NCBI RefSeq assembly: GCF_900109375.1
Contig: NZ_FOAB01000004.1
Span: forward strand, 1 to 64,000
DNA length: 64,000 nt
Source of the DNA: Aquimarina amphilecti
Lineage (GTDB): Bacteria > Bacteroidota > Bacteroidia > Flavobacteriales > Flavobacteriaceae
Direction: 5' to 3'
Part shown: one piece after another, positions 5,382-63,253 of the stretch
Layout of the letters: each line of letters starts with the position of its first letter
Position numbering within the stretch: the first letter of the stretch is position 1
Translations under genes and position numbers: made by a program
Notes under the pieces: generated by a model
Seen by the model: the letters and a program-made list of their open reading frames with translations, nothing else
Database searches by the model: none
What the model was told of the DNA's origin: nothing

Positions 5382-5627
5382 TTAAATACAACAATTGTAA
5401 TATGGGTAACTTGGAGTATTTGGATTAGCAGGATGGAAGTAACATCCAGGGATATAAGTTGCACCACATTCAGGGTTATTAACTAAATCAGTGGTTGTAC
5501 AACAAGATAATGCTGGATTACAGCATCCACCACCTCCAGAACCAGGACGTCCTCCTCCAGAAATACCTTTTTGTTCTTTTCTATTAAGTTGTTGAGCCCC
5601 TTTTAAATTTAAAATTTTTTTTAACAT
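5382..5627 (-). CDS. Small Cys-rich secreted peptide precursor with double-glycine leader (bacteriocin-like)
   Basis: An 81-residue precursor. The leader MLKKILNLKGAQQLNRKEQ runs into KGISGGG. The same pattern (MLKxILxLxG, then basic QQK-I-x-GG) is found in two peptides at 55.7 and 58.0 kb in this window. Such leaders are known from Bacteroidetes RiPP/bacteriocin-like peptides cut after GG by C39 peptidase-ABC exporters. The core starts Gly-rich and has eight cysteines at 35, 36, 42, 43, 54, 62, 79 and 80, three of them as CC pairs. No exporter or modifying enzyme is next to it. The upstream DNA has an inverted repeat (TTAATTG at 5645-5651, CAATTAA at 5657-5663) but not the conserved box of the other peptides. 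Function unknown. Confidence 0.72.
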   Translation of the reverse strand: MLKKILNLKGAQQLNRKEQKGISGGGRPGSGGGGCCNPALSCCTTTDLVNNPECGATYIPGCYFHPANPNTPSYPYYNCCI

Positions 5628-14077: not shown

Positions 14078-14680
14078 TTAATTAATTATCCGAAAGGTAA
14101 GATTAACACGTGGATTTTTGATTTTTTTTGATTTGGGCAATTGATGTAGCCAGTTCTCTTGTGTTTTTCCGCGCATTATAAGCAAACTACCATGCTGTAA
14201 TAAAAGTTTTTGCTTTAGTTCTTTAGTTTTATGTTTAAAATGAAACCATCTTTCTTCTCCAAAGCTTACAGAAGCTATTATAGGTTCAGGACCAAGTTCT
14301 TTTTCATTATCAGAATGCCAGCCATTGCTGTCTTGACCGTCTCGATACAGATTTAGTAAACAGGTAGTAAATATCTCGGAACTTATATGATCTACTTTTT
14401 TTTTAATCTTCGATAATTCATCCGTAAATACATGAGGCTGCATTGTAATGTTAGAGTAAGTATAAGTGTTTTTATTACTGGAGTAGAGCGCTGTTAGACG
14501 AGGTTGCTTATGAACTTTTCCAAATACTTTTATATCATCTTGTTGCCACTGAATAGACTTTTTTAGTATATCAAACAATTGATCGGCCTCAGTTTTTTCA
14601 AAAAAAAAGGGAAAATAAGATACATCAGCATCTGGCATTTTTAATTGAATATTCTGGTTTTGAGAAGTAAATAGATCCAA
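14078..14680 (-). CDS. AlkB-like 2-oxoglutarate/Fe(II) dioxygenase
   Basis: A 200-residue member of the AlkB family, which removes alkyl lesions from DNA or RNA bases by oxidative demethylation. The iron triad is in NGWHSDNE (HxD) and ENWLHQLP (His), and the 2-oxoglutarate-binding RxxxxxR is seen at NPRVNLTFRIIN. The family motif SLLIMRG is also present. Size and order match short bacterial ALKBH2/3-like enzymes. It lies 12 bp downstream of the DoxX-like gene and probably shares its transcript. Confidence 0.9.
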   Translation of the reverse strand: MDLFTSQNQNIQLKMPDADVSYFPFFFEKTEADQLFDILKKSIQWQQDDIKVFGKVHKQPRLTALYSSNKNTYTYSNITMQPHVFTDELSKIKKKVDHISSEIFTTCLLNLYRDGQDSNGWHSDNEKELGPEPIIASVSFGEERWFHFKHKTKELKQKLLLQHGSLLIMRGKTQENWLHQLPKSKKIKNPRVNLTFRIIN

Positions 14681-14692
14681 TAGTGTTGTTGT

Positions 14693-15040
14693 TTAAAAGT
14701 ATAATTGTGCCCAATATATCAAACCGAATTGGAGTAATATTCTAAAAATAAGAACTGATTTAGGGAGATTTAAACTCGCTTTTTTATTAATAAGCATATG
14801 TATATGAACAGGAAAAAAGACAACCAACATACCTATAATAGCCCAAATTGAAAAAAACCTTGTCTGTACAAACAAAATACCTATACCAGCCATGATTTCA
14901 GCAATACCACTTAGGTATACTAGCTGTTTGTGATATGGAATATACAAAGGCATGATTCTGATAAATGCCTTTGGTTTGATAAGATGAAAAACACCGGCAA
15001 TTATAAAAACACCGGATAAAATATATAAATGCCAATTCAT
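14693..15040 (-). CDS. DoxX family membrane protein
   Basis: A 115-residue protein with four hydrophobic helices: LYILSGVFIIAGVFHLIKP, LVYLSGIAEIMAGIGILFV, WAIIGMLVVFFPVHIHML and LIFRILLQFGLIYW. The motifs AGVFHLIKPKAF and LSGIAEIMAGIGIL are typical of the DoxX/DoxD-like family. The start overlaps the stop of the upstream gene (TAATG), so translation is coupled. Family members are linked to redox stress responses; the exact role here is not known. Confidence 0.82.
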   Translation of the reverse strand: MNWHLYILSGVFIIAGVFHLIKPKAFIRIMPLYIPYHKQLVYLSGIAEIMAGIGILFVQTRFFSIWAIIGMLVVFFPVHIHMLINKKASLNLPKSVLIFRILLQFGLIYWAQLYF

Positions 15041-15501
15041 TAAATTCCTGTAGTTTTTTCTTTACCAGCAGTGCTAAGAGCAAACCCTTTACTTCGGGTC
15101 ATTTTTTTAATAAAACTTACTTTTCTAAAACGTAATGCACTCCAATCTTCATCAATAGCTACTTGTCTAACAGGTTCTAAATTGTAATCACCTAAAACTC
15201 CCCATCCATTATCTCTCGTGATTTCAGAGTTATACTTTTTAGAACTTTTTTTAGGGTATGCAAACCATAGAACAGCGTCACCAACCAATTTGGGATAGAT
15301 AGTTTCTATTCGGTTTTCGATTTGTTTCTTTTCCTTAACAAAAACTATTGCAAAATCGACCTCAGATACTTGTATTAAAGATTCTTTTACAAGAATATCT
15401 TTTAAACAATTTAATTCTTTACAAAATCCTTCAGGCTCATTTAATATTAGTATTTCATCAAGTGATGGCGGAAGTTGTAATTTTTTAAATAAAGAAGTCA
15501 T
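15040..15501 (-). CDS. DUF3052-like small cytoplasmic protein
   Basis: A 153-residue soluble protein of unknown function. The segment AVLWFAYPKKSSKKYNSEI followed by GWGVLGDYNLEPVRQVAID resembles proteins labelled DUF3052 or YdeI-like in Flavobacteriia. My recall of the family is not certain. The N-terminal part begins LQLPPSLDEILILNEPEGF. It leads a three-gene minus-strand unit with the DoxX-like and AlkB-like genes, coupled by TAATG overlap to the first. Confidence 0.6.
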   Translation of the reverse strand: MTSLFKKLQLPPSLDEILILNEPEGFCKELNCLKDILVKESLIQVSEVDFAIVFVKEKKQIENRIETIYPKLVGDAVLWFAYPKKSSKKYNSEITRDNGWGVLGDYNLEPVRQVAIDEDWSALRFRKVSFIKKMTRSKGFALSTAGKEKTTGI

Positions 15502-15792
15502 GAGTTAGGATTTTAGTTGGATACTCTGTGTTTACTACAAGATACAAAAAAATGAGCAAGTATATTATATTTTAATGTAATCCTTAGGGTAAGATGATTT
15601 AATCATAAGATCCTATAATAAAGTATTATAAATACTGATTTTATCAAGTCTTCGTTAGACCCGTGTAAAACGAATACTTTTTTATACCACTCGTTTTTTT
15701 ACAGTTTTATGGCACTTAGTATTTTCTGTAAAGTAAAAAGGAAAGTAATGATTAATATAGTATTGCTTTTAAAACTTACACAAACCTGTATT

Positions 15793-17013
15793 ATGAAGAA
15801 TAATTTTAAAATTCTCAAGCCTTTTTTGTTTGGGCTAATGATAAGTGTGCTATTAATATCCTGTGAATCGCAGGAGTTAGAGTCCAATAATCAACAAGAA
15901 ACATATGATGATTTTGTATTGGAACAGGCATATCCAGATGAGACTGGAGAATTATTCAGAATAACTCTAAATGGAGAGGAAATAGATGTAGAAAGTATCA
16001 ATAAATATTACATCTTAGAAGGAGATATTAAAATAGAACTATCTGATACGAATAAGGGAGTGGGAAGAACAGGAGGGAGATGGCCAAATAACATTGTGCA
16101 TTATTCTATTGAAAATGGAATGCCTAACCAATCAAGAATTACAAATGCTATAGCTCATTGGGAGTCTAAAACAGCGCTTAGATTTGAACCACGTACCAAT
16201 CAATCTAGTTATGTGTATTTCAAGAATGGATCTGGTTGTTCTTCATATGTGGGCCGTATTGGTGGTCGTCAAGATATTACTTTAGCAAATGGATGTTCAA
16301 CAGGGAATACAATTCATGAAATTGGTCATGCAATTGGTTTGTGGCATGAACAAAGTAGAAAAGATAGAGATCAGTACATAAAAGTATTATTCGAAAATAT
16401 TCAAAATGGTAAAGATTTTAATTTTAAAACTTATATAGAACAAGGTCAAGATGGAAATGAATATACTTCTAGTCTGGATCTAGGAAGTATTATGATGTAC
16501 GGATCATATGCTTTTTCTAAAAATGGACAACCTACAATAACTCGTGTTAATGGAAATACCTATAATGCGCAACGTAATGGCTTGTCTGATAGCGATGTAT
16601 TAGGTATAAATAAAATGTATCCTCCAGTTGTTTCCGATAACATAATTGAGCTGAAAGGAAATAATGATAAATATGTCAGTAGTGAAAACGGAGGTAAACC
16701 AATGAACTGTAATCGAACAACTGCACAAGGGTGGGAAAAGTTTGAAGTAATAACATTAAGTGGTGGAAAAGTAGCACTTAAAGGAAACAATGGTAAATAT
16801 GTAAGTAGTGAGAATGGTACTAGTTCTATTACTTGTAGTAGAGCTCAAATTGGCTCTTGGGAACAATTTACACTTGTGAGTAGAGGAGGAAATAAATACG
16901 CCTTAAAAGGTAATAATAATAAATATGTTAGCTCAGAAAATGGTGCTAAACCAATGACGTGCAATAGGGCATCAATAGGGAACTGGGAGGAATTCGTAAT
17001 TTCGGGATTGTAA
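15793..17013 (+). CDS. Astacin-like (M12A) metalloprotease lipoprotein with three C-terminal beta-trefoil repeats
   Basis: A 406-residue exported protease. I chose ATG 15793 because it directly starts a lipoprotein signal (FGLMISVLLISCESQ). The upstream in-frame ATG at 15709 would add 28 residues before the signal. A propeptide (about 20-95) is followed by the astacin domain. Its zinc site HEIGHAIGLWHEQSRKDRD and Met-turn SIMMYGSYAF are complete, as in flavastacin and myroilysin. After about residue 285 come three copies of a 40-residue unit (LKGNNxKYVSSENG then C-N/S-R and W-E-x-F), like fascin or ricin-type trefoil blades, probably for carbohydrate binding. A terminator follows. It is a likely secreted or surface digestive enzyme. 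Confidence 0.9.
   Translation: MKNNFKILKPFLFGLMISVLLISCESQELESNNQQETYDDFVLEQAYPDETGELFRITLNGEEIDVESINKYYILEGDIKIELSDTNKGVGRTGGRWPNNIVHYSIENGMPNQSRITNAIAHWESKTALRFEPRTNQSSYVYFKNGSGCSSYVGRIGGRQDITLANGCSTGNTIHEIGHAIGLWHEQSRKDRDQYIKVLFENIQNGKDFNFKTYIEQGQDGNEYTSSLDLGSIMMYGSYAFSKNGQPTITRVNGNTYNAQRNGLSDSDVLGINKMYPPVVSDNIIELKGNNDKYVSSENGGKPMNCNRTTAQGWEKFEVITLSGGKVALKGNNGKYVSSENGTSSITCSRAQIGSWEQFTLVSRGGNKYALKGNNNKYVSSENGAKPMTCNRASIGNWEEFVISGL
16647..17010 (+). repeat. Three tandem coding repeats (trefoil units) in the astacin gene
   Basis: Units begin near 16649, 16777 and 16900. Each encodes LKGNNxKYVSSENG and ends W-E-x-F about 33 residues on. The DNA of the copies has drifted more than the protein, so the repeats are old and kept for function. 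Confidence 0.75.
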
Positions 17014-55658: not shown

Positions 55659-55838
55659 TTATTGATTTCCGTTTACGCATACCCCATTTTGAGGATACCA
55701 ACCTAAGCATAGGCATTGAGTTCCATCGATAGAAATTGCTTGAGCACAAGCAGGATTTCCGTTACCACCGTTAATGGATTTTTGTTGATTTTTTTTAATT
55801 TCCTGAACTCCGTTTTCTTTTAAAATGTTCTTTAACAT
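55659..55838 (-). CDS. 59-residue Cys-containing peptide precursor with double-glycine leader
   Basis: A short gene: leader MLKNILKENGVQEIKKNQQK then SINGG and a core of about 34 residues with cysteines at 31, 42, 44 and 54 (NPACAQAISIDGTQCLCLG, ending GVCVNGNQ). Leader and Gly-Gly site match the peptides at 5.4 and 58.0 kb. Such leaders direct export with cleavage after GG by C39-type ABC exporters in other bacteria; no exporter is here. The gene lies 10 bp before a terminator and about 30 bp after the conserved upstream box (55869-55904). Bacteriocin, signal or structural peptide are all possible. Confidence 0.78.
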   Translation of the reverse strand: MLKNILKENGVQEIKKNQQKSINGGNGNPACAQAISIDGTQCLCLGWYPQNGVCVNGNQ

Positions 55839-55868
55839 GTTATTAGTTTTAAGAATAATTTATAATGC

Positions 55869-55904
55869 CCTGAACATTTATAGACACTCAAGGTATATGT
55901 CTAT
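55869..55904 (-). promoter_or_regulatory. Conserved upstream box with dyad, copy 1
   Basis: Plus-strand CCTGAAC (55869-55875), ATTT, then ATAGACAC (55880-55887), 9 bp, and ATGTCTAT (55897-55904). Same layout as the boxes at 57.8 and 58.3 kb. It begins 31 bp upstream of the peptide start. A CGTTCT element lies farther upstream (complement near 55915-55922), but no GTAACAT at 17 bp. Confidence 0.75.
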
Positions 55905-56007
55905 TTAATATATTAAGAACGATTAATAATATAATTGTTGCTTAAAGAGATGTTAAATAAACAGGGAAAATTCAGTTTTTTTATTGGAACTATTATAATT
56001 TTAAGAT

Positions 56008-57213
56008 TTAAAATAGATTCATCGATATATACAAACTAGATGTAGTTAATTCAGAATCCGGTATGGAAGTACTCTTTGATATGTTTTTAGCTGTATATTG
56101 TCTAAAACCAATTTTAAAACGACCTGATCCCAGACCTCCACCATAAAAATAATCAGTAGTGGTGTTTTCTATTTCATTATCTGCAAAAACATTAGATTCT
56201 GTACCAACATTAAAATCAACGGTAAGACCTCCTTCTAGAAATAATTCAAACTTAGAACTTAGGTAAATATGAAATCTTGGTCCTACAGCTACATTGATAC
56301 TTTTATAATCTAATTCGAATTCGCTGTTAGAAATTGCAAAATCCCTACCGTCCATAGTAAAAGCTTTATAGGTGGATTCTAGAAAGAAACTTAAATCGAC
56401 TTTAGAGAAAGGTATAAAAGTTTCTATGAATATCCCGTATCTAGGTACAAAAACATCATCGTAACTTACATTCCCAGCACCCCCTATAATAGAATTATGA
56501 GTAAAACCACTTACATCTACAGCAGCAACAATACCTATTCTGGTTTGATTGATTTTTTTTCGAATACTATATTCTATTTCATAGCCCTTGCATTCGTTAT
56601 ATTTTTTGAAGTATCTTTTTAAGTCTCTTTGCGTATATGTCAGTTTAGATACATCTTGATTATCGCAATTCACTTTATCCTGTAATTGTTGTTGGTAAGT
56701 GTTGTTTTGCTGTGGGATAATTTTCTTTCCTGGTTTTTTACTTTCATCAGGAGTATAAAACACCTTGTATAATAGCAATTCGGGATATACTGTATTAGGA
56801 TCCGTATAAAAGAAACGATTTACACCATTTTCTGAATATTGATATAAAGTAGTTTTACTTTTTAAAATAGTTCTTAGAAATATTTTTTGATACCTAAGAT
56901 TTGGGTCTTTTGATTTGGTTGATTTGCCAACGGTATCTCCATTAAGATCAAATTGTAGGATATACCTTTTAAACCTATAATCTTCTCCTACTGCAAACTC
57001 TTTAACGTTTTCAATAGTTTCAGTTTTAGGGCTAGAGGAGATGGTTCGTTTCCATTCGAATTCTGTTGGATTACTTTTCCAGGACAGTTTTTTGATTAAG
57101 CATTCTTTTCGGTTTCCATCGTTATCGATAAAATAACCAGCTTCATAAAGGCTTTGTGCGCTGCAAGTGGCTATACAAAATAGGCCTACTGCAAAATAAA
57201 GTAAAGATTTCAT
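56008..57213 (-). CDS. Exported beta-barrel protein of unknown function
   Basis: A 401-residue protein with a signal peptide (ends ATCSAQSL). The N-terminal half (about 20-150, YFIDNDGNRKECLIKKLSWK) looks like a small periplasmic beta domain. The middle is polar, with two cysteines (VNCDNQDVS, KKYNECKGY). The last 180 residues are amphipathic strands of an outer-membrane barrel (RIGIVAAVDVSGFTHNS to SSLYISMNLF, an aromatic end). This arrangement is frequent in Flavobacteriia without known function. It lies between two peptide genes on the same strand; a role in peptide passage is only a thought. Confidence 0.72.
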   Translation of the reverse strand: MKSLLYFAVGLFCIATCSAQSLYEAGYFIDNDGNRKECLIKKLSWKSNPTEFEWKRTISSSPKTETIENVKEFAVGEDYRFKRYILQFDLNGDTVGKSTKSKDPNLRYQKIFLRTILKSKTTLYQYSENGVNRFFYTDPNTVYPELLLYKVFYTPDESKKPGKKIIPQQNNTYQQQLQDKVNCDNQDVSKLTYTQRDLKRYFKKYNECKGYEIEYSIRKKINQTRIGIVAAVDVSGFTHNSIIGGAGNVSYDDVFVPRYGIFIETFIPFSKVDLSFFLESTYKAFTMDGRDFAISNSEFELDYKSINVAVGPRFHIYLSSKFELFLEGGLTVDFNVGTESNVFADNEIENTTTDYFYGGGLGSGRFKIGFRQYTAKNISKSTSIPDSELTTSSLYISMNLF

Positions 57214-57422
57214 GTATATGACGATCTGAGTGTGTGAAGGAGCAAATATAGCTTTTTTGTTAAAAATCAGATCGTTTACTTTTGATTTATCCTTAAAAAG
57301 GAAGATTGCGTTTAAAAAATATCATAATGTTTACTACTTCATTATGGTTATCTAATTATCATATACTCATCCCAATCGTTTTCAAAATTAGATAAATAAT
57401 TTATGAAGAAAGGTTATGAACC

Positions 57423-57571
57423 CAGATAGCTTCTATCTGTAGATAAGTTTTTGTGTATTTGTAATGCTTGATTATTTTTATAAAGTTTTTTACTGTTAAT
57501 AAAACTTTATGTTCTCTGCATTCTAACAAAAAGAAAGAATAACGTTGAAAATGCTATTCTTTCTTTTTGTT
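57423..57571. repeat. Three hairpins downstream of the Cys-heptad peptide gene
   Basis: CAGATAG/CTATCTG (57423-57439), ATAAAGTTTT (57480-57489) with AAAACTTTAT (57501-57510), and a 17-bp perfect stem AACAAAAAGAAAGAATA (57525-57541) with its complement (57555-57571). The last begins 6 bp after the stop of the minus-strand peptide gene and may act as its terminator. The other two are unexplained. The rest of the 363-bp gap holds no gene. Confidence 0.6.
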
Positions 57572-57576
57572 AACTG

Positions 57577-57807
57577 TTATTCACAATTAATATGAATCGA
57601 ATGACAGTTAACTTCGGTAGGTCCGCAATCAATGGTTAGGATAGCACATCCCTCTGATATAAGTCCATCATCTGTGGGACAATAGAATTTACCTGTTGGG
57701 CAATCATCTCTAGACATTAAAGGATCTCCTCCTTTGATACGGAGACTACCAAGTCTAGAGACAATGTTTTTTTTTAAGGATAAACCATTTAATTTTTTTT
57801 TCTTCAT
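57577..57807 (-). CDS. Lanthipeptide-like Cys-rich peptide precursor with regularly spaced cysteines
   Basis: A 76-residue precursor. The leader (MKKKKLNGLSLKKNIVSRLG then SLRIKGG) differs from the other peptides and resembles leaders of Bacteroidetes class I lanthipeptide-like precursors (K-rich, LSLxKKxIxxL, GG). The core has six cysteines at 36, 43, 54, 61, 68 and 75: intervals 7, 11, 7, 7 and 7. Ser and Thr are present for possible lanthionine rings, but no LanB/LanC or LanM gene is in the window, so disulphides or metal binding are equally possible. It has its own ECF-like promoter, the conserved upstream dyad and a hairpin after the stop. Confidence 0.75.
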   Translation of the reverse strand: MKKKKLNGLSLKKNIVSRLGSLRIKGGDPLMSRDDCPTGKFYCPTDDGLISEGCAILTIDCGPTEVNCHSIHINCE

Positions 57808-57832
57808 GATTTTAATTTAAGTTGATTTGTAT

Positions 57833-57868
57833 CCTGAACATTTAGAGACACTCAGATGTTGTGTCTGT
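57833..57868 (-). promoter_or_regulatory. Conserved upstream box with dyad, copy 2
   Basis: CCTGAAC (57833-57839), ATTT, AGAGACAC (57844-57851), 9 bp, GTGTCTGT (57861-57868), the same spacing as copies 1 and 3. It lies 26 bp from the peptide start and overlaps the probable transcription start. Confidence 0.8.
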
Positions 57869-57869
57869 T

Positions 57870-57899
57870 ATATCGTTCTGGTAGTTAGGGAAATGTTAC
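57870..57899 (-). promoter_or_regulatory. ECF-type promoter candidate of the 76-residue peptide gene
   Basis: On the minus strand GTAACAT (complement of 57893-57899), 17 bp, CGATAT (complement of 57870-57875). Same -35 heptamer and spacing as two other sites in this cluster. Confidence 0.65.
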
Positions 57900-57934
57900 T
57901 ATGGTTTTTCTGTTTTTTTGAAAAAATTAACTTT

Positions 57935-57970
57935 TATAAAAAAACCAGTTAAAAATCAATTTAACTGGTT
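57935..57970 (-). terminator. Terminator of the 81-residue peptide gene
   Basis: AACCAGTTAAA (57943-57953) pairs with TTTAACTGGTT (57960-57970). On the minus strand the stem is followed by seven T residues. It makes the two adjacent peptide genes separate transcripts. Confidence 0.85.
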
Positions 57971-58015
57971 CTTATCTTTTTTATCTAACTCAGAAATTAT
58001 TTCCCAGTTATCATA

Positions 58016-58261
58016 TTAAAGATTATGAGGGCTATCAGGACCTGTATCTCCTGATCCCTGGCATATCCATATATAACAGGTAGATCCATTTCCTACTACG
58101 TCGCTATTGCCATAAGCTTTTACTCCATTTTGACATCCAAAAGGCATTTCTGGCTCACATTCTATTTGTAATCCATTATTTCTGATTCCACCTTTAATTG
58201 TTTTTTGTTGTTTTTTATTAATTGAATTAATTCCTTCCAGTTTTAAAATGTTTTTTAACAT
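58016..58261 (-). CDS. Cys-containing peptide precursor with double-glycine leader
   Basis: An 81-residue precursor with leader MLKNILKLEGINSINKKQQK then TIKGG, the same type as at 5.4 and 55.7 kb. The core (about 26-81) holds four cysteines at 35, 43, 62 and 67 (IECEPEMPFGCQNG, TCYIWICQGSG) and many Gly, Asn and Asp residues. Export with cleavage at GG is expected from known leaders of this kind; the exporter must be elsewhere. It has its own promoter (58324-58353), conserved upstream dyad (58287-58322) and terminator (57935-57970). It is the peptide gene nearest to the CHAT gene, 220 bp downstream of it. Confidence 0.75.
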   Translation of the reverse strand: MLKNILKLEGINSINKKQQKTIKGGIRNNGLQIECEPEMPFGCQNGVKAYGNSDVVGNGSTCYIWICQGSGDTGPDSPHNL

Positions 58262-58286
58262 ATATTAAAATTTAAAAATTTGATTA

Positions 58287-58322
58287 CCTGAACATTTATA
58301 GACACTCAGAGCTTGTGTCTAT
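58287..58322 (-). promoter_or_regulatory. Conserved upstream box with dyad, copy 3
   Basis: CCTGAAC (58287-58293), ATTT, ATAGACAC (58298-58305), 9 bp, GTGTCTAT (58315-58322): a perfect 8-bp dyad. An outer pair CCTGAAC/GTTCAGG (58329-58335) adds a second stem. It lies 26 bp from the start codon. Confidence 0.85.
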
Positions 58323-58323
58323 A

Positions 58324-58353
58324 AGAACGTTCAGGAAGCTTTCTACATGTTAC
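58324..58353 (-). promoter_or_regulatory. ECF-type promoter candidate of the 81-residue peptide gene
   Basis: On the minus strand GTAACAT (complement of 58347-58353), 17 bp, CGTTCT (complement of 58324-58329). The dyad sits just downstream, over the expected transcription start. Confidence 0.65.
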
Positions 58354-58420
58354 TATGTAAAATTGATTTTTTTAAGAAATAACTTTGCGAGTTTGTAAGT
58401 GATTGATTTATATGGAAAAA

Positions 58421-58457
58421 CAAAGGAGGTTGATATAAATTTGTAAACCTTCCTTTA
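58421..58457 (-). terminator. Probable terminator of the CHAT operon
   Basis: AAAGGAGGTT (58422-58431) pairs with AACCTTCCTTT (58446-58456) with one bulged base, followed on the minus strand by GTTTTTCC. Weaker than the others in the window. Confidence 0.5.
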
Positions 58458-58482
58458 GTTTTTATGTGCATATCTGTTCTTT

Positions 58483-61215
58483 CTATTTCTTTTTAATTAA
58501 ATAGAAACGATATATAATAAGAACTAATAAAATAATACCTAGACCAATCCACAAAAACAACAAGTTGTTAGATTGTGGCAACAACGTTCCGCTATCGCCT
58601 ATCAATACTAAAGAGGCCCAATAATGAGGAGATGCTTCTGCATCTGTATTGTTGTTAAGATAATTTAGTTTTGCTGTTCGTAGGGCTGCAGATTTGGTTT
58701 GTCCTTTACTTAGGTTTTTGTAAAAGTCAGAGGTAATAGTAGCCGTGGCTTTATCATTGGTGTTCCATAAAGTTGGAATCACGGTATTAGCTCCGGATTT
58801 AAAGAATCCACGAGCAAGACTGAATACACCTTCGCCTGTATTAATTTTGCCCAAGGAAGTGTTGCAGGCACTAAGAACTACTAGTTCTGATTGATTATCA
58901 ATAGTAGAAAGTTGTAGTTCAGTAAGTTTTTCTCGTTGAAAAGCGATCCAAGGGGTTAAAGAGTCGGAAGCATCAGCGTGTGTAGCTAAATGTAATATTT
59001 TATATTGGTTGGCTACTTTTTTGAAATTTTGAATAGTCGCCTTTTCGTTAAGTAATAAATCACCAGAATAATAATGTTTGGCATTAACTAATTCCTTTTT
59101 GCTATTAGGAAGTGAGGTTAAAATATTTGAAAATGTTATAGGTGCAATGCCCAAATAATCATTTTTTGGCTTACGATCAATTTTTGCATTTTCTTTAGAA
59201 AAGGATAGAGAATACGCATAATTTATTTCGGTCTGCTGTATTAAGTAACTTCCTTTTTTAGGGTTTGTTATGAGTGCTTCAAAAGGAATGTAATTTAAAA
59301 TATGATCTGGAATAAAAGTAGCTTTATTATTTACTAAATGCTTTTGCAGATTTTTAGGGATCAAAGAATTGTATATGCTGTAAGCTAACTCACTATATTC
59401 TGAAATATCTAATGATGTCGTAAATGGCTTGTTTAGTAGCTCTCTGAGTCTATAAATTTCTTTTTGTAGTCTGTTTACATTCTCGATCTTAAAAATTTCT
59501 TTTTTATTTTTTGTAATAAACATACCATAAGCTTCTGGAATTACACCAGCGATTCTTTCTGCCATGTTGTATTCAATAATTACTTCATTCGGACTTAGCT
59601 CTAGTTTAGATAAAGGTGTAATTTCGGGTATAGAAAAATGTGTAAAATACGTTGGATATATAGGAGCTAATGAATCTCTAATTTTTTTTAGTCTCGCTTG
59701 TTTAGACAATAAAACTTTTTGGATTGAATCGGAGGAATTTTGATCTGATAATCTGAGCTTTGATCTTAATCCAACTATAACGTCTTTTAATTTTTTTTCT
59801 TTTTCCAAGATACTAGGCGATAAGGCTGTTTTATCTTTTGTAATTTCTTGTAATAATAATAAAGCCTTACTTTTTTCCATGAAATAGTAAGAATCCTCAT
59901 TTTTCTTAAGCTGTAAACAAGCCTCTAAGCCCATAATGTAAATTTCCGAAGCAAGGCTTCTCCATAATAATTTAGATCTAGTAGATATATTTTCTTTTAA
60001 TAACAGATCAACCAGTTGGTCACTTGCATGTGCCGTGCGAATTGCTTCCTCAAAATACAATGAGTCGTTTTTTGTTTTCCCTAGTTCTATCCAGGCTTTT
60101 AATTTTCTTTTTAGTAATTCTAGGAAAAAAGTTTTGTTTACTACTTGCTCCAAATCATTTTTTGCAGGAAGCCAGTAGATATCTTTTATTTTTTTATCAA
60201 AATAGATTGAAAAAACTGAGCTAAAATTTTCTTGGGCGGCGATATAATTTTCATTTGATAACTCCTTAATCCCTAATCCGAAGAAAATTTTATGTTTAAA
60301 GGATGGCGCATAGGAAGCATATTCTAATGCTTTATCAAAAAAGAATTGAGAACGAATAGAATCAATTTCAATAAAAGTCAATCCTAAATTGTAATATGAT
60401 TTAGCATACTTTTCTTTAAACTTTAATTCTTTCAAAATTGTTAAAGCCTCATCATAACATTTAATACAATTGTCTATGTTTTGGGTTCCAACACCTTCAC
60501 AATACAAGTTTCCAAGATTGTTTTTTATGTTATATAGTTTTTGCTTATCCGTGGTACTGCTATCTCCTAAAAGCTTTTCTGCTTTTAGGAGGTGTTCAAT
60601 TGCCTTCTTAGAACTTTCTGCAGATCGTATTAAGCGATAACTATAGGCTAAATTGATGTTTCCATATACTAAAAAACCTTTTTGGATATCTTTTTTTGAA
60701 TAATTTTGTAAAGATTTTATTCTATAGTCAACGGATTTGTAATAGTCTCCCAGAATTTCGTAAGATTCACCAATTAACTCATATGACTTACCCCTTAAAA
60801 ATTTTGTTCCTCCTAATGCAAGTAGTTTTTCAAAGTACTCAATAGCAATAGTGTAATTTTCATGTCTACGGTTGTAGATGGCGTAATTGTAATAACTTCT
60901 TTTTAACAATTCCTTATTGAAGGGAGTAGCTTTTTCTCTTGCTTGATAAGCAATTTCAACTATTTTTATAGCCTCTTCCCACTTTTTTTCCTTATGAATC
61001 CATTTAGCTATTTGATGTGCGTCATAGCCCAACTGGGTATAGTTTTCGCTTCTTTCGTAGGTTTTTATTAAACCATAATAAAGCTCTAATTTATTAAAAT
61101 TAGAGCCAGTTAACTGATGAATAGAATCTAATTCAGGAGAAATTCCCTGCCCCTTTGTTGGTAGGGTCAGGAAAAAAGTAATATATAATATAAATACTAT
61201 CTTCTTTTTGTACAA
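58483..61215 (-). CDS. Exported, tail-anchored TPR-CHAT (caspase-like) protein
   Basis: A 910-residue protein. A signal peptide (about 1-22, FILYITFFLTLPTKGQG) is followed by tetratricopeptide repeats (about 30-440), for example YNYAIYNRRHENYTIAIEYF and SYYNLGLTFIEID. A helical linker (about 440-530) precedes the C-terminal CHAT domain (about 590-870). The Cys-His dyad is complete: His746 in ILHLATHADASD and Cys784 in LVVLSACNTSLGK. CHAT is a caspase-related protease fold. One membrane helix (about 886-902, LFLWIGLGIILLVLIIY) and a basic tail (LIKKK) end the protein, which puts TPR and CHAT in the periplasm. It lies 10 bp after the Cys-rich lipoprotein gene, in one operon. Substrates unknown. 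Confidence 0.88.
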   Translation of the reverse strand: MYKKKIVFILYITFFLTLPTKGQGISPELDSIHQLTGSNFNKLELYYGLIKTYERSENYTQLGYDAHQIAKWIHKEKKWEEAIKIVEIAYQAREKATPFNKELLKRSYYNYAIYNRRHENYTIAIEYFEKLLALGGTKFLRGKSYELIGESYEILGDYYKSVDYRIKSLQNYSKKDIQKGFLVYGNINLAYSYRLIRSAESSKKAIEHLLKAEKLLGDSSTTDKQKLYNIKNNLGNLYCEGVGTQNIDNCIKCYDEALTILKELKFKEKYAKSYYNLGLTFIEIDSIRSQFFFDKALEYASYAPSFKHKIFFGLGIKELSNENYIAAQENFSSVFSIYFDKKIKDIYWLPAKNDLEQVVNKTFFLELLKRKLKAWIELGKTKNDSLYFEEAIRTAHASDQLVDLLLKENISTRSKLLWRSLASEIYIMGLEACLQLKKNEDSYYFMEKSKALLLLQEITKDKTALSPSILEKEKKLKDVIVGLRSKLRLSDQNSSDSIQKVLLSKQARLKKIRDSLAPIYPTYFTHFSIPEITPLSKLELSPNEVIIEYNMAERIAGVIPEAYGMFITKNKKEIFKIENVNRLQKEIYRLRELLNKPFTTSLDISEYSELAYSIYNSLIPKNLQKHLVNNKATFIPDHILNYIPFEALITNPKKGSYLIQQTEINYAYSLSFSKENAKIDRKPKNDYLGIAPITFSNILTSLPNSKKELVNAKHYYSGDLLLNEKATIQNFKKVANQYKILHLATHADASDSLTPWIAFQREKLTELQLSTIDNQSELVVLSACNTSLGKINTGEGVFSLARGFFKSGANTVIPTLWNTNDKATATITSDFYKNLSKGQTKSAALRTAKLNYLNNNTDAEASPHYWASLVLIGDSGTLLPQSNNLLFLWIGLGIILLVLIIYRFYLIKKK

Positions 61216-61225
61216 TATAAATGAT

Positions 61226-61789
61226 TTATTGGTAATTTATTGATCTCCATATTTCATTACAAGACTCTGTAGATATCCAAGTATAGCGCGTTTCAGGACA
61301 TTCCGAACAAGCTGGATCTCCCTCTGTTTCTTCTAACAAGATCTTGTTTTGTTCAGCCTCATGAACAACGGCTCCATTTGTTTTAGCATTTAATGGCTCT
61401 AATTTACATTTTATAAAATCGCAATAAGATGTTGGAAGTTCATTACATGGCATATACCATTCATAGATTCCTTCGCAATAAGCAACTGTTGAAGCGAAAA
61501 TAATACTATAGGTTCCTTTTTTACCCTGTGAGAATTCTAAATAATCCATACGATCTTGCGCGGTTGAATTTTTAGGAAAAACTACATAAACCTTAGTAAA
61601 GCAGGTAGCATCTATATTTCCTGAGCCCAAAGCTTTGTTTAAAGAGTTTTGCTTGCCAAATAATTCATTAGAATTTAATGCGTTTTCAGGAATAATATCT
61701 CCTATTTGTTCTTGTTTATCATCTGTAGAGCAGCTTTGTATTCCAATCGCAAAAACTGCCGCTACCAATAGTAACGTGATTTTTTTCAT
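61226..61789 (-). CDS. Cys-rich lipoprotein of unknown function, first gene of the CHAT operon
   Basis: A 187-residue lipoprotein with signal LLLVAAVFAIGIQSCSTDD (Cys20 lipidated). The mature part has eight more cysteines (63, 105, 115, 123, 128, 161, 164, 177), with CSEC at 161-164, so disulphides are likely. I do not recognise the family. I prefer ATG 61789 over the in-frame ATG 61813: the ECF-type promoter (61822-61851) would start transcription near 61815, leaving no leader for the longer form, and the signal peptide begins at 61789. It is followed after 10 bp by the TPR-CHAT gene, so the two proteins probably act together at the periplasmic side of a membrane. Confidence 0.75.
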   Translation of the reverse strand: MKKITLLLVAAVFAIGIQSCSTDDKQEQIGDIIPENALNSNELFGKQNSLNKALGSGNIDATCFTKVYVVFPKNSTAQDRMDYLEFSQGKKGTYSIIFASTVAYCEGIYEWYMPCNELPTSYCDFIKCKLEPLNAKTNGAVVHEAEQNKILLEETEGDPACSECPETRYTWISTESCNEIWRSINYQ

Positions 61790-61821
61790 TTTTAAATAGT
61801 TTTTTGTTTTCATTATTTATT

Positions 61822-61851
61822 AGTATGTTTCCCTAACCTAACAAATGTTAC
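61822..61851 (-). promoter_or_regulatory. ECF-type promoter candidate of the lipoprotein-CHAT operon
   Basis: On the minus strand GTAACAT (complement of 61845-61851), 17 bp, CATACT (complement of 61822-61827). It sits in the divergent region to the ECF sigma gene and shares heptamer and spacing with two peptide promoters. The near-palindrome TAACAAATGTTA (61839-61850) overlaps it. Confidence 0.62.
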
Positions 61852-61892
61852 CACGCGAAAGTAAAAAAAAATAAATAGTTAAAGATATCTTA

Positions 61893-62459
61893 ATGCTAAT
61901 ACCTGAAAAAGACCTATTAGAACGGCTTGTTAATGGAGATAAGAAAGTTATTCAAGACTTGTATATAAAGGAGTTTCCAAAAATCAAAAGTTTTATACTT
62001 AATAATAATGGGAATGAGGCGGATTCAGAAGATGTTTTTCAGAAAGCGTTGATGCAGATTATTGCAAGATATAAATCGAATGCCTTTACGCTTAAAGGCT
62101 CTTTTGATGGGTTTTTGTATAGTGCCTGCAGAAATTTGTGGCGTAGAGAACTAAATAAACAAAAACGTATAGTAACAAATGATGAGGTTATTGAACATGC
62201 TAAAGAAGCGGATGATCTAACAATGGCTACTCTAGAACAAGAGAAATGGGAGCTATTTCAGGAAAAATTAGCTGAATTATCTGATAACTGTAAACAATTA
62301 TTGCAATTATTTTTCCAGAAAGTACCATATAAAGATATTGTGGTAAAACTAGGATATAATACGGATAATGTAGTGAGACAACGTATTTTTAATTGTAAGT
62401 CGCAATTGACTAAATTGATTAAAAAAGATTCGAGATATAACCAAATCAAAGAATTATGA
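61893..62459 (+). CDS. ECF-type RNA polymerase sigma factor
   Basis: A 188-residue sigma-70 family protein of the extracytoplasmic function group. Region 2 (about 10-95) has NEADSEDVFQKALMQIIARY and FLYSACRNLWRRELNK, typical of sigma-2 core binding and -10 reading. Region 4 (about 120-175) has the helix-turn-helix VPYKDIVVKLGYNTDNVVRQ and RIFNCKSQL, which reads the -35 element. The next gene overlaps it by 4 bp (ATGA) and encodes a membrane protein likely to be its anti-sigma factor. It is divergent from the lipoprotein-CHAT operon, its probable target, together with the nearby peptide genes. Confidence 0.9.
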   Translation: MLIPEKDLLERLVNGDKKVIQDLYIKEFPKIKSFILNNNGNEADSEDVFQKALMQIIARYKSNAFTLKGSFDGFLYSACRNLWRRELNKQKRIVTNDEVIEHAKEADDLTMATLEQEKWELFQEKLAELSDNCKQLLQLFFQKVPYKDIVVKLGYNTDNVVRQRIFNCKSQLTKLIKKDSRYNQIKEL

Positions 62460-63253
62460 AAGATTACCCAATAGAAATTGATGATTATCTAAGCGGTAAT
62501 ATGTCAACATCAGAAAAAGAAGCATTCGAAACTAGATTGCTTACAGATATAGAACTATCAAAAGAATTGAAGTTACAGAAGGACATGCAGAAGATTTATG
62601 AAGATCAAAAATGGTTAGAAGAAGATAAAGAAATCTTAAAAACAGAAAAAGCTGTTAAATTAAAATCGTTTTTTGAGAGTAATGAGGCTAAGAGTTTAAA
62701 ATCTACAATTGATGAGGTAATTTCAGAAAACCGAGCTACTTCTACCGATAAGACTTTTTGGTTTATGGGTATTGCCGCGTCTATTGCTGTTTTGATAACG
62801 GTCTCATTATTTGTTTTTAAGGATACTAATTATGATGAATTGTATGCTTCTTATGTTCACCTTGATGAAATACCATCATTAGTAACTAGGGGAGAGGATA
62901 CAAATAAGATGCTTGAAGACGCCCAGTTATTATTCGAAGAACAAAAATATCAAAAAGCTACAGAGTTATTTACCACCTATCATCAAAAAGAGAAATCTAT
63001 TGATCCTTTAAGTTATATTTACAATGGGATCTCATATGTAGAACTTAATAAGTTTGATGAAGCTTTATCACAGTTTCAACTTTTGGGAGATTCTAACACA
63101 CTACAAGCTAAAAAAGCCAATTGGTATAAAGCTTTGATTTATTTAAAACAGGAGGATAAAAATAAATTAAAAGAAATTTTACAAATCATTGTGTCCGATA
63201 GCGATAATTATAAATATCAAAATGCTAAAGAACTTTTAGCCAAGATTGATTAA
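62456..63253 (+). CDS. Single-span membrane TPR protein, putative anti-sigma factor
   Basis: A 265-residue protein. The N-terminal region (about 1-95) starts IEIDDYLSGNMSTSEKEAFE, the layout of zinc-free anti-sigma domains, and is acidic-basic helical. One membrane helix follows (about 100-121, FWFMGIAASIAVLITVSLFVF). The periplasmic part (about 150-265) has TPR-like repeats (DAQLLFEEQKYQKATELFTT and YIYNGISYVELNKFDEALSQ). Overlap with the sigma gene by 4 bp and the topology suggest that it holds the sigma factor at the membrane and receives an envelope signal through its TPR part, maybe by contact with the TPR-CHAT protein (inference). Confidence 0.78.
   Translation: MKDYPIEIDDYLSGNMSTSEKEAFETRLLTDIELSKELKLQKDMQKIYEDQKWLEEDKEILKTEKAVKLKSFFESNEAKSLKSTIDEVISENRATSTDKTFWFMGIAASIAVLITVSLFVFKDTNYDELYASYVHLDEIPSLVTRGEDTNKMLEDAQLLFEEQKYQKATELFTTYHQKEKSIDPLSYIYNGISYVELNKFDEALSQFQLLGDSNTLQAKKANWYKALIYLKQEDKNKLKEILQIIVSDSDNYKYQNAKELLAKID

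Follow-up and report, generated by a model that had tools for sequence, protein, structure and literature searches.

A sigma factor and CHAT protease block associated with cysteine-rich peptides and a pseudoknot leader RNA in Flavobacteriaceae

In the Craspase (CASP) system, the tetratricopeptide repeat (TPR)-CHAT protease Csx29 is activated by Cas7-11 RNA recognition and cuts Csx30, the inhibitor of the extracytoplasmic function (ECF)-like sigma factor CASP-sigma (PMC10028731). Here we describe a block of genes in a 64,000-nucleotide stretch of the Aquimarina amphilecti genome (contig NZ_FOAB01000004.1, positions 1 to 64,000; hereafter the window, to which coordinates refer unless labelled otherwise) in which a TPR-CHAT protease is likewise encoded together with an ECF sigma factor and its presumed inhibitor. 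When an AlphaFold2 model of the window CHAT protein (predicted local distance difference test, pLDDT, 86.9) was compared with solved structures in the PDB, Csx29 was the closest fold (Z 31.3, 605 residues), followed by separase and by the transmembrane anti-sigma factor DdvA (PDB 8rot, 8rw5), which matches over the TPR and CHAT-like parts (Z 22.9, 577 residues). The block differs from Craspase in several respects: its CHAT protein has a signal-like N-terminus and a C-terminal transmembrane helix, its presumed anti-sigma factor is a membrane TPR protein, and its neighbours are secreted peptides with double-glycine (GG) leaders. No open reading frame (ORF) of the size of Cas7-11 adjoins the window block and no cas family recurs in 32 neighbourhoods, the rest of the genome not having been searched. 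In DdvA, compared by fold only, the fold lies inside the anti-sigma chain itself, whereas the presumed anti-sigma factor and the TPR-CHAT protein are separate genes in the window. An earlier note on this DNA had held that no described system has this set of parts; given Csx29-Csx30-CASP-sigma and, by fold, DdvA as related arrangements, that statement was too strong. The open-access literature yielded no description of an ECF sigma factor, CHAT and GG peptides together (most subscription papers lay outside the search).

Two further comparisons are useful. RseA/DegS-type release has the same logic as the one we propose, in that a membrane inhibitor is cut on the periplasmic side; here CHAT would replace the serine protease, and homology is not claimed. 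Bacteriocin- or microcin-type C39-ABC export has GG leaders, a C39 peptidase ATP-binding cassette (ABC) transporter and an HlyD adaptor in common with many of the linked loci, but these loci also combine the exporter with a C39-like/VKOR/thioredoxin protein and the ECF-CHAT block, and they carry a pseudoknot leader RNA. The combination of a conserved sigma/protease block, Cys-rich peptides and a pseudoknot RNA suggests an undescribed signalling and peptide-secretion system. Judged from sequence, we consider it about evenly balanced whether the envelope-signalling block indeed controls, and in many species physically joins, a secretion system for small disulfide-bonded peptides.

The window block consists of the ECF sigma factor and the membrane TPR protein, divergent from a lipoprotein and the predicted periplasmic TPR-CHAT protease (Table 1), and the genes listed in the earlier note were all confirmed as ORFs. 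The sigma factor exceeds the cut-offs of TIGR02937 (54.4 bits versus 42.9) and PF04542 (25.9 versus 24). The membrane TPR protein, presumed to be the anti-sigma factor, has a single transmembrane segment at about residue 105, with the TPR part predicted on the periplasmic side; 82 of its 84 homologues have a transmembrane-like segment near residue 103. In the CHAT protein, PF12770 scores 184.4 bits against a curated cut-off of 24, and TPR_12 is also matched. The Cys-His dyad, previously reported as complete, is kept in all 92 relatives (His746 and Cys784), and both stretches align with the corresponding stretches of Csx29. Because the homologues have a hydrophobic N-terminus (77 of 92), a C-terminal transmembrane-like segment (90 of 92) and none between, the simplest reading is that CHAT is a periplasmic, membrane-anchored enzyme.

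The block recurs together with peptide genes. The upstream box, described as shared in the earlier note, precedes all three window peptides and is not a product of chance, as a genome search allowing up to 3 mismatches gave 8 matches compared with 0 in a reversed control. The five boxes outside the window sit at three loci (L009–L011), each with an ECF sigma factor, a TPR membrane protein, a lipoprotein and a TPR-CHAT protein. The source genome has four paralogous blocks, all with box-bearing GG peptides; identities to the window block are 48–53% for the sigma factors, about 30% for the CHAT proteins and about 20–27% for the lipoproteins. A covariance model finds 16 boxes in this genome at E < 0.03, with 10 within 5 kb of the four blocks versus 0.15 expected, a contrast to be read with the clustered copies in mind, as these are not independent.

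The ECF profile retrieved 80 loci, 62 of them full-length, from Flavobacteriaceae or close relatives, and nearly every one keeps the divergent layout. A box-bearing small ORF lies within about 10 kb in 43 of the 62 full-length loci, and nearly all such ORFs have a GG leader; box or GG leader, the latter by hidden Markov model (HMM), is found in 44. GG leaders were absent from nine control stretches without a box (eight CHAT neighbourhoods and one neutral) and present in box-fetched stretches. VKOR-type proteins occur in 18 and C39-ABC exporters in 12 of the full-length loci. Within 300 nt behind CHAT and on its strand, VKOR comes first in 19 blocks and a box peptide in 17, and one locus (L191) has the row lipoprotein, CHAT, VKOR, C39-ABC, box peptide and HlyD. 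In a test within the genus, among the matches listed, a box lies within 6 kb of at least 30 of 38 GG-type CHATs versus 0 of 28 other, more distant full-length CHATs, which are taken as subtilase type by assumption, and at least 48 of 115 boxes lie near a GG-type CHAT versus 0.8 expected. Over 149 genera of the family, box and GG-type CHAT share 7 genomes (of 16 and 19, respectively) versus about 2 expected (Fisher P = 0.001). The recurrence of peptide genes beside the ECF-CHAT block, which the earlier note had proposed as a check, is thus borne out.

A second type of block bears on the target of the protease. It has a subtilase lipoprotein in the slot of the small lipoprotein and keeps the ECF sigma factor, the anti-sigma factor and CHAT, without boxes or peptides; the two types fall apart in the CHAT tree. 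Two such sister blocks, without GG peptides, are found in genome G000 (contig C8:377339-380059 and C9:186448-189192; L204, L205). As these blocks dispense with any peptide, the sigma/anti-sigma pair is the constant partner of CHAT, and because CHAT keeps this pair but not the peptides across both block types, the anti-sigma factor is its likelier target. Cutting of the peptides by CHAT appears less likely from the sequences. It would be expected if CHAT were a maturation or quality-control protease that acts in the periplasm after C39-ABC export, trimming or degrading Cys-rich peptides that are misfolded or uncleaved, with the sigma factor answering peptide overload. Such a role would suit the peptide or VKOR genes that immediately follow CHAT in the same orientation, the predicted periplasmic and membrane-anchored position of CHAT and its conserved dyad, but we hold it to be rather unlikely, given the peptide-free sister blocks, the occurrence of same-box GG peptides where no GG-type CHAT was detected in the genome, and mature parts that vary strongly in sequence. 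In the reading favoured here, CHAT probably acts on the anti-sigma factor, and the peptides are cargo that is regulated and disulfide-bonded.

The small lipoprotein has a single recognisable stretch (V.V.Y..g.t...K...R...C....E.W), which aligns with the N-terminal region of the sister-block subtilase lipoproteins (hhalign P = 2.5 × 10−7, compared with 0.35–0.75 for four control families). We read the lipoprotein as a possible stand-alone prodomain-like module.

The upstream box is an H-type pseudoknot, in which stem 1 pairs AGACAC with GUGUCU and helix 2 pairs the loop CCUUGA with a downstream UCAAGG. In 65 aligned boxes, 96.2% of cells are paired by standard pairs, all six helix 2 pairs change on both sides, and the covariation score is 0.354 compared with 0.162 for shuffled and at most 0.110 for slid alignments. 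Stem 1 and the downstream GG ORF, not helix 2, served as anchors for the alignment; the boxes also had to match AAATGTTC loosely, a condition that favours the outermost, first bases of helix 2 and leaves the variable inner pairs (columns 12–14 with 33–35) unaffected. Because helix 2 covaries, we dropped the description of the box as a plain DNA inverted repeat in favour of an RNA pseudoknot. A DNA operator would account for the nearly invariant stem 1 (GACAC/GTGTC) and for an additional TCGCGA element, which 36 of 83 boxes have in place of an ECF promoter and at a fixed distance (in 33 of them, 11 nt ahead of stem 1). We nevertheless find an operator very improbable: helix 2 pairs loop bases with a stretch further downstream, and each of its six pairs covaries; in stem 1, the closing pair switches among A-U, U-A, C-G and G-C; and the distance from box to start codon is constant, at 57–65 nt for about 90% of the 128 distinct box peptides.

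The pseudoknot does not correspond to a known RNA family, as Rfam 15 gave no family at gathering score at the box and only chance-level matches at E up to 10; nor was a flavobacterial pseudoknot of this kind described in the open-access literature (most subscription papers being outside the search). Among 296 genomes drawn from across the phylum, box matches were confined to Flavobacteriaceae. The TCGCGA-centred, roughly palindromic element (ATTCTCTCGCGAAGAAT; variants such as CTTGCAAG) adjoins the pseudoknot on its 5′ side in L011, L036–L088 and others. A strict palindrome test on it was weak (at least 7 of 8 self-complementary positions in 7 of 119 boxes versus 1.1 shuffled), and it may be an operator, part of a promoter or an RNA hairpin. 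At one locus, right behind CHAT, a box precedes the gene of a 175-aa lipoprotein, not a GG peptide (L197:11515-12101, + strand).

Upstream of the lipoprotein-CHAT operon, the motif GGTAAC occurs in 72 of 87 homologous regions, compared with a mean of 3.15 after shuffling and none on the other strand. It is often followed by GAAC 13–16 nt on, and GTAACA-N13-16-GAAC occurs in 32 of the 87 regions versus 0.05 in shuffled sequence. The same GTAACA-GAAC promoter lies directly upstream of 9 of 83 peptide boxes, namely those of window peptides 2 and 3 and seven others, compared with 0 in shuffled sequence; in other species, peptides stand in tandem behind CHAT. If transcripts start at stem 1, both the ECF promoter and TCGCGA would occupy the −10 position. 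Of the promoter signature that had been described as shared, copies precede the peptides at 57577 and 58016, and a near form precedes the lipoprotein; the peptide at 55659 has none. Joint activation of peptides and protease by the sigma factor, also put forward in the earlier note, gains support from the lipoprotein-CHAT operon and these two window peptides, but not from the majority of boxes.

In all three window peptides GG follows after about 25 residues, and in the 128 distinct box-linked peptides the leader ends in GG and has a median length of 23 aa. Cys is present in the mature part of all 128 (an even number in 101 and an odd number in 27) and absent from 3049 leader residues. This confinement of Cys to the mature parts, mostly in even numbers, fits disulfide-bonded products and a VKOR/thioredoxin partner. 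In other species, the exporter set linked to the block comprises a C39-like/VKOR/thioredoxin protein, a C39-ABC transporter and HlyD. A fusion of C39-like domain, VKOR and thioredoxin (family F3; L011:9230-10831, − strand) recurs beside the peptide exporter, and its C39-like domain seems to be without the catalytic Cys.

Window peptide 2 has an LxLxKx5L leader ending in GG, the motif of Bacteroidetes class I lanthipeptide precursors (PMC7268733; NF038153), whereas the other peptides have a different leader. Its NF038153 score is below the cut-off of 22; about 16 box-linked relatives have this leader type and one of them passes (28.9 bits). No LanB was found beside peptide 2, the only one in the genome being on contig C5, and no LanC was seen there. 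The peptides might also be bacteriocin-like weapons, with the ECF-CHAT block an envelope stress or immunity response merely travelling along. NCBIfam labels similar leaders bacteriocin-like (NF047798, under cut-off), and the cores are Cys-rich and diverse with up to 20 copies per genome. That reading seems to us distinctly improbable, as a promoter in common and the tandem order point to joint control more than to neighbourhood alone, no immunity-type family was seen recurring beside the peptides, and PADLOC gave no relevant match. With no relevant match to a PADLOC model, a reading as an anti-phage defence system was rejected as well.

We infer an anti-sigma role, a cleavage, its signal, a feedback and a role of the RNA as follows. 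The membrane TPR protein would keep the sigma factor inactive until TPR-CHAT is activated by a signal arriving on the outer or periplasmic side, with the prodomain-like lipoprotein perhaps as the relay. CHAT would then cleave the periplasmic part of the anti-sigma factor, a site-1 cleavage comparable to that of Csx30 by Csx29. The freed sigma factor would transcribe lipoprotein and CHAT and, where operon or promoter is shared, exporter and peptides, giving positive feedback. The pseudoknot would serve as a second gate at the level of the message (translation or stability), also for such peptides far from the CHAT block. The C39-ABC exporter would carry the peptides out and remove the GG leader, and the VKOR/thioredoxin protein would oxidise them. 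The signal might instead be the peptides themselves: in a quorum-type loop, exported GG peptides would build up and dock onto the TPR region of either CHAT or the anti-sigma factor (or onto the lipoprotein), whereupon CHAT would free the sigma factor and more peptide and exporter would be made. Peptide binding by receptors with TPR folds is common, the TPR part of the CHAT model has the peptide receptors Rap and NprR among its fold matches, and the exporter lies within the CHAT operon in many species. We regard such a loop as unlikely, as a block has several unrelated mature peptides, the Rap and NprR matches are generic for TPR superhelices, and a receptor-peptide pair cannot be told from sequence.

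Several observations weigh against the favoured scheme of anti-sigma cleavage and joint peptide control. Searches of Pfam and NCBIfam recognised no anti-sigma domain in the membrane TPR protein. The ECF promoter is directly upstream of only the 9 of 83 peptide boxes given above. The subtilase-prodomain link of the lipoprotein has one profile alignment as its sole basis, and a structure model of the lipoprotein, itself weak (pLDDT 67), had no significant fold match in the PDB. In the source genome the C39-ABC exporters are not beside the block, and its two long C39 ORFs lie elsewhere than the window. In the survey of 149 genera, some genomes with boxes have no detected GG-type CHAT and some with such a CHAT have no box; the two are for this reason associated, not obligate partners.

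Table 1 Features of the block in the window
Feature	Position	Strand	Evidence
GG-leader peptide 1	55659..55838	−	ORF, 59 aa, 4 Cys after GG; leader HMM match; pseudoknot box ~60 nt upstream
H-type pseudoknot leader RNA, peptide 1	55865..55903	−	R1 58.8 bits, E 2e-12; covariation
GG-leader peptide 2	57577..57807	−	ORF, 76 aa, 6 Cys after GG; leader LxLxKx5L; NF038153 17.6 bits
H-type pseudoknot leader RNA, peptide 2	57829..57867	−	R1 40.4 bits
ECF-type promoter GTAACA-N15-GAAC, peptide 2	57875..57899	−	Sequence; motif enriched before boxes
GG-leader peptide 3	58016..58261	−	ORF, 81 aa, 4 Cys after GG; box ~60 nt upstream
H-type pseudoknot leader RNA, peptide 3	58283..58321	−	R1 53.8 bits
ECF-type promoter GTAACA-N15-GAAC, peptide 3	58329..58353	−	Sequence; motif enriched before boxes
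Periplasmic TPR-CHAT protease, predicted	58483..61215	−	910 aa; PF12770 184 bits; His746, Cys784
Cys-containing lipoprotein, fast-evolving	61226..61813	−	hhalign to subtilase lipoproteins; same position in most loci
ECF-type promoter GGTAACA-N14-GAAAC, lipoprotein-CHAT operon	61827..61852	−	GGTAAC conserved in homologous regions
ECF sigma factor	61893..62459	+	TIGR02937 and PF04542 above cut-off; three genome paralogues
Membrane TPR protein, presumed anti-sigma	62456..63253	+	4-nt overlap with ECF gene; one transmembrane segment; paralogues

The barrel gene at 56008-57213, previously listed as a component, is a bystander, as it was found in only five closely syntenic loci. Far from the block, the window has a fourth GG-leader Cys-rich peptide (5382-5627, − strand, 81 aa) with no box detected. 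Elsewhere in the source genome, GG peptides with weaker boxes lie near a recurring family of 540–579 aa (F11) at two loci (L200, C4:552k; L201, C6:214k), and at L201 a response-regulator-like family (F6) is also near GG peptides; both loci are a possible peptide-signalling setting. At L010, CHAT is followed by a PKD_6 protein (14645-15832, + strand) whose Por secretion tail marks it as type IX cargo.

At its widest, and only tentatively, the locus may represent a new kind of Gram-negative system for secreted, disulfide-bonded GG peptides that has two gates. One gate would be a caspase-like protease whose action frees the ECF sigma factor on the other side of the inner membrane; the other would be a small pseudoknot RNA of a new class, serving as a mark of such peptide genes and perhaps responding to a ligand or protein as a switch. 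The system as a whole might close a peptide-sensing loop. If true, this would join a separase- or Csx29-like protease, acting outside CRISPR on a membrane sigma inhibitor, with two further elements, namely a large and diverse set of marine flavobacterial secreted Cys-rich peptides without known function and a compact covarying RNA that is not in Rfam. By way of the conserved promoter the sigma regulon can be tested directly, and the pseudoknot RNA provides a simple genome-wide marker for the peptide genes.

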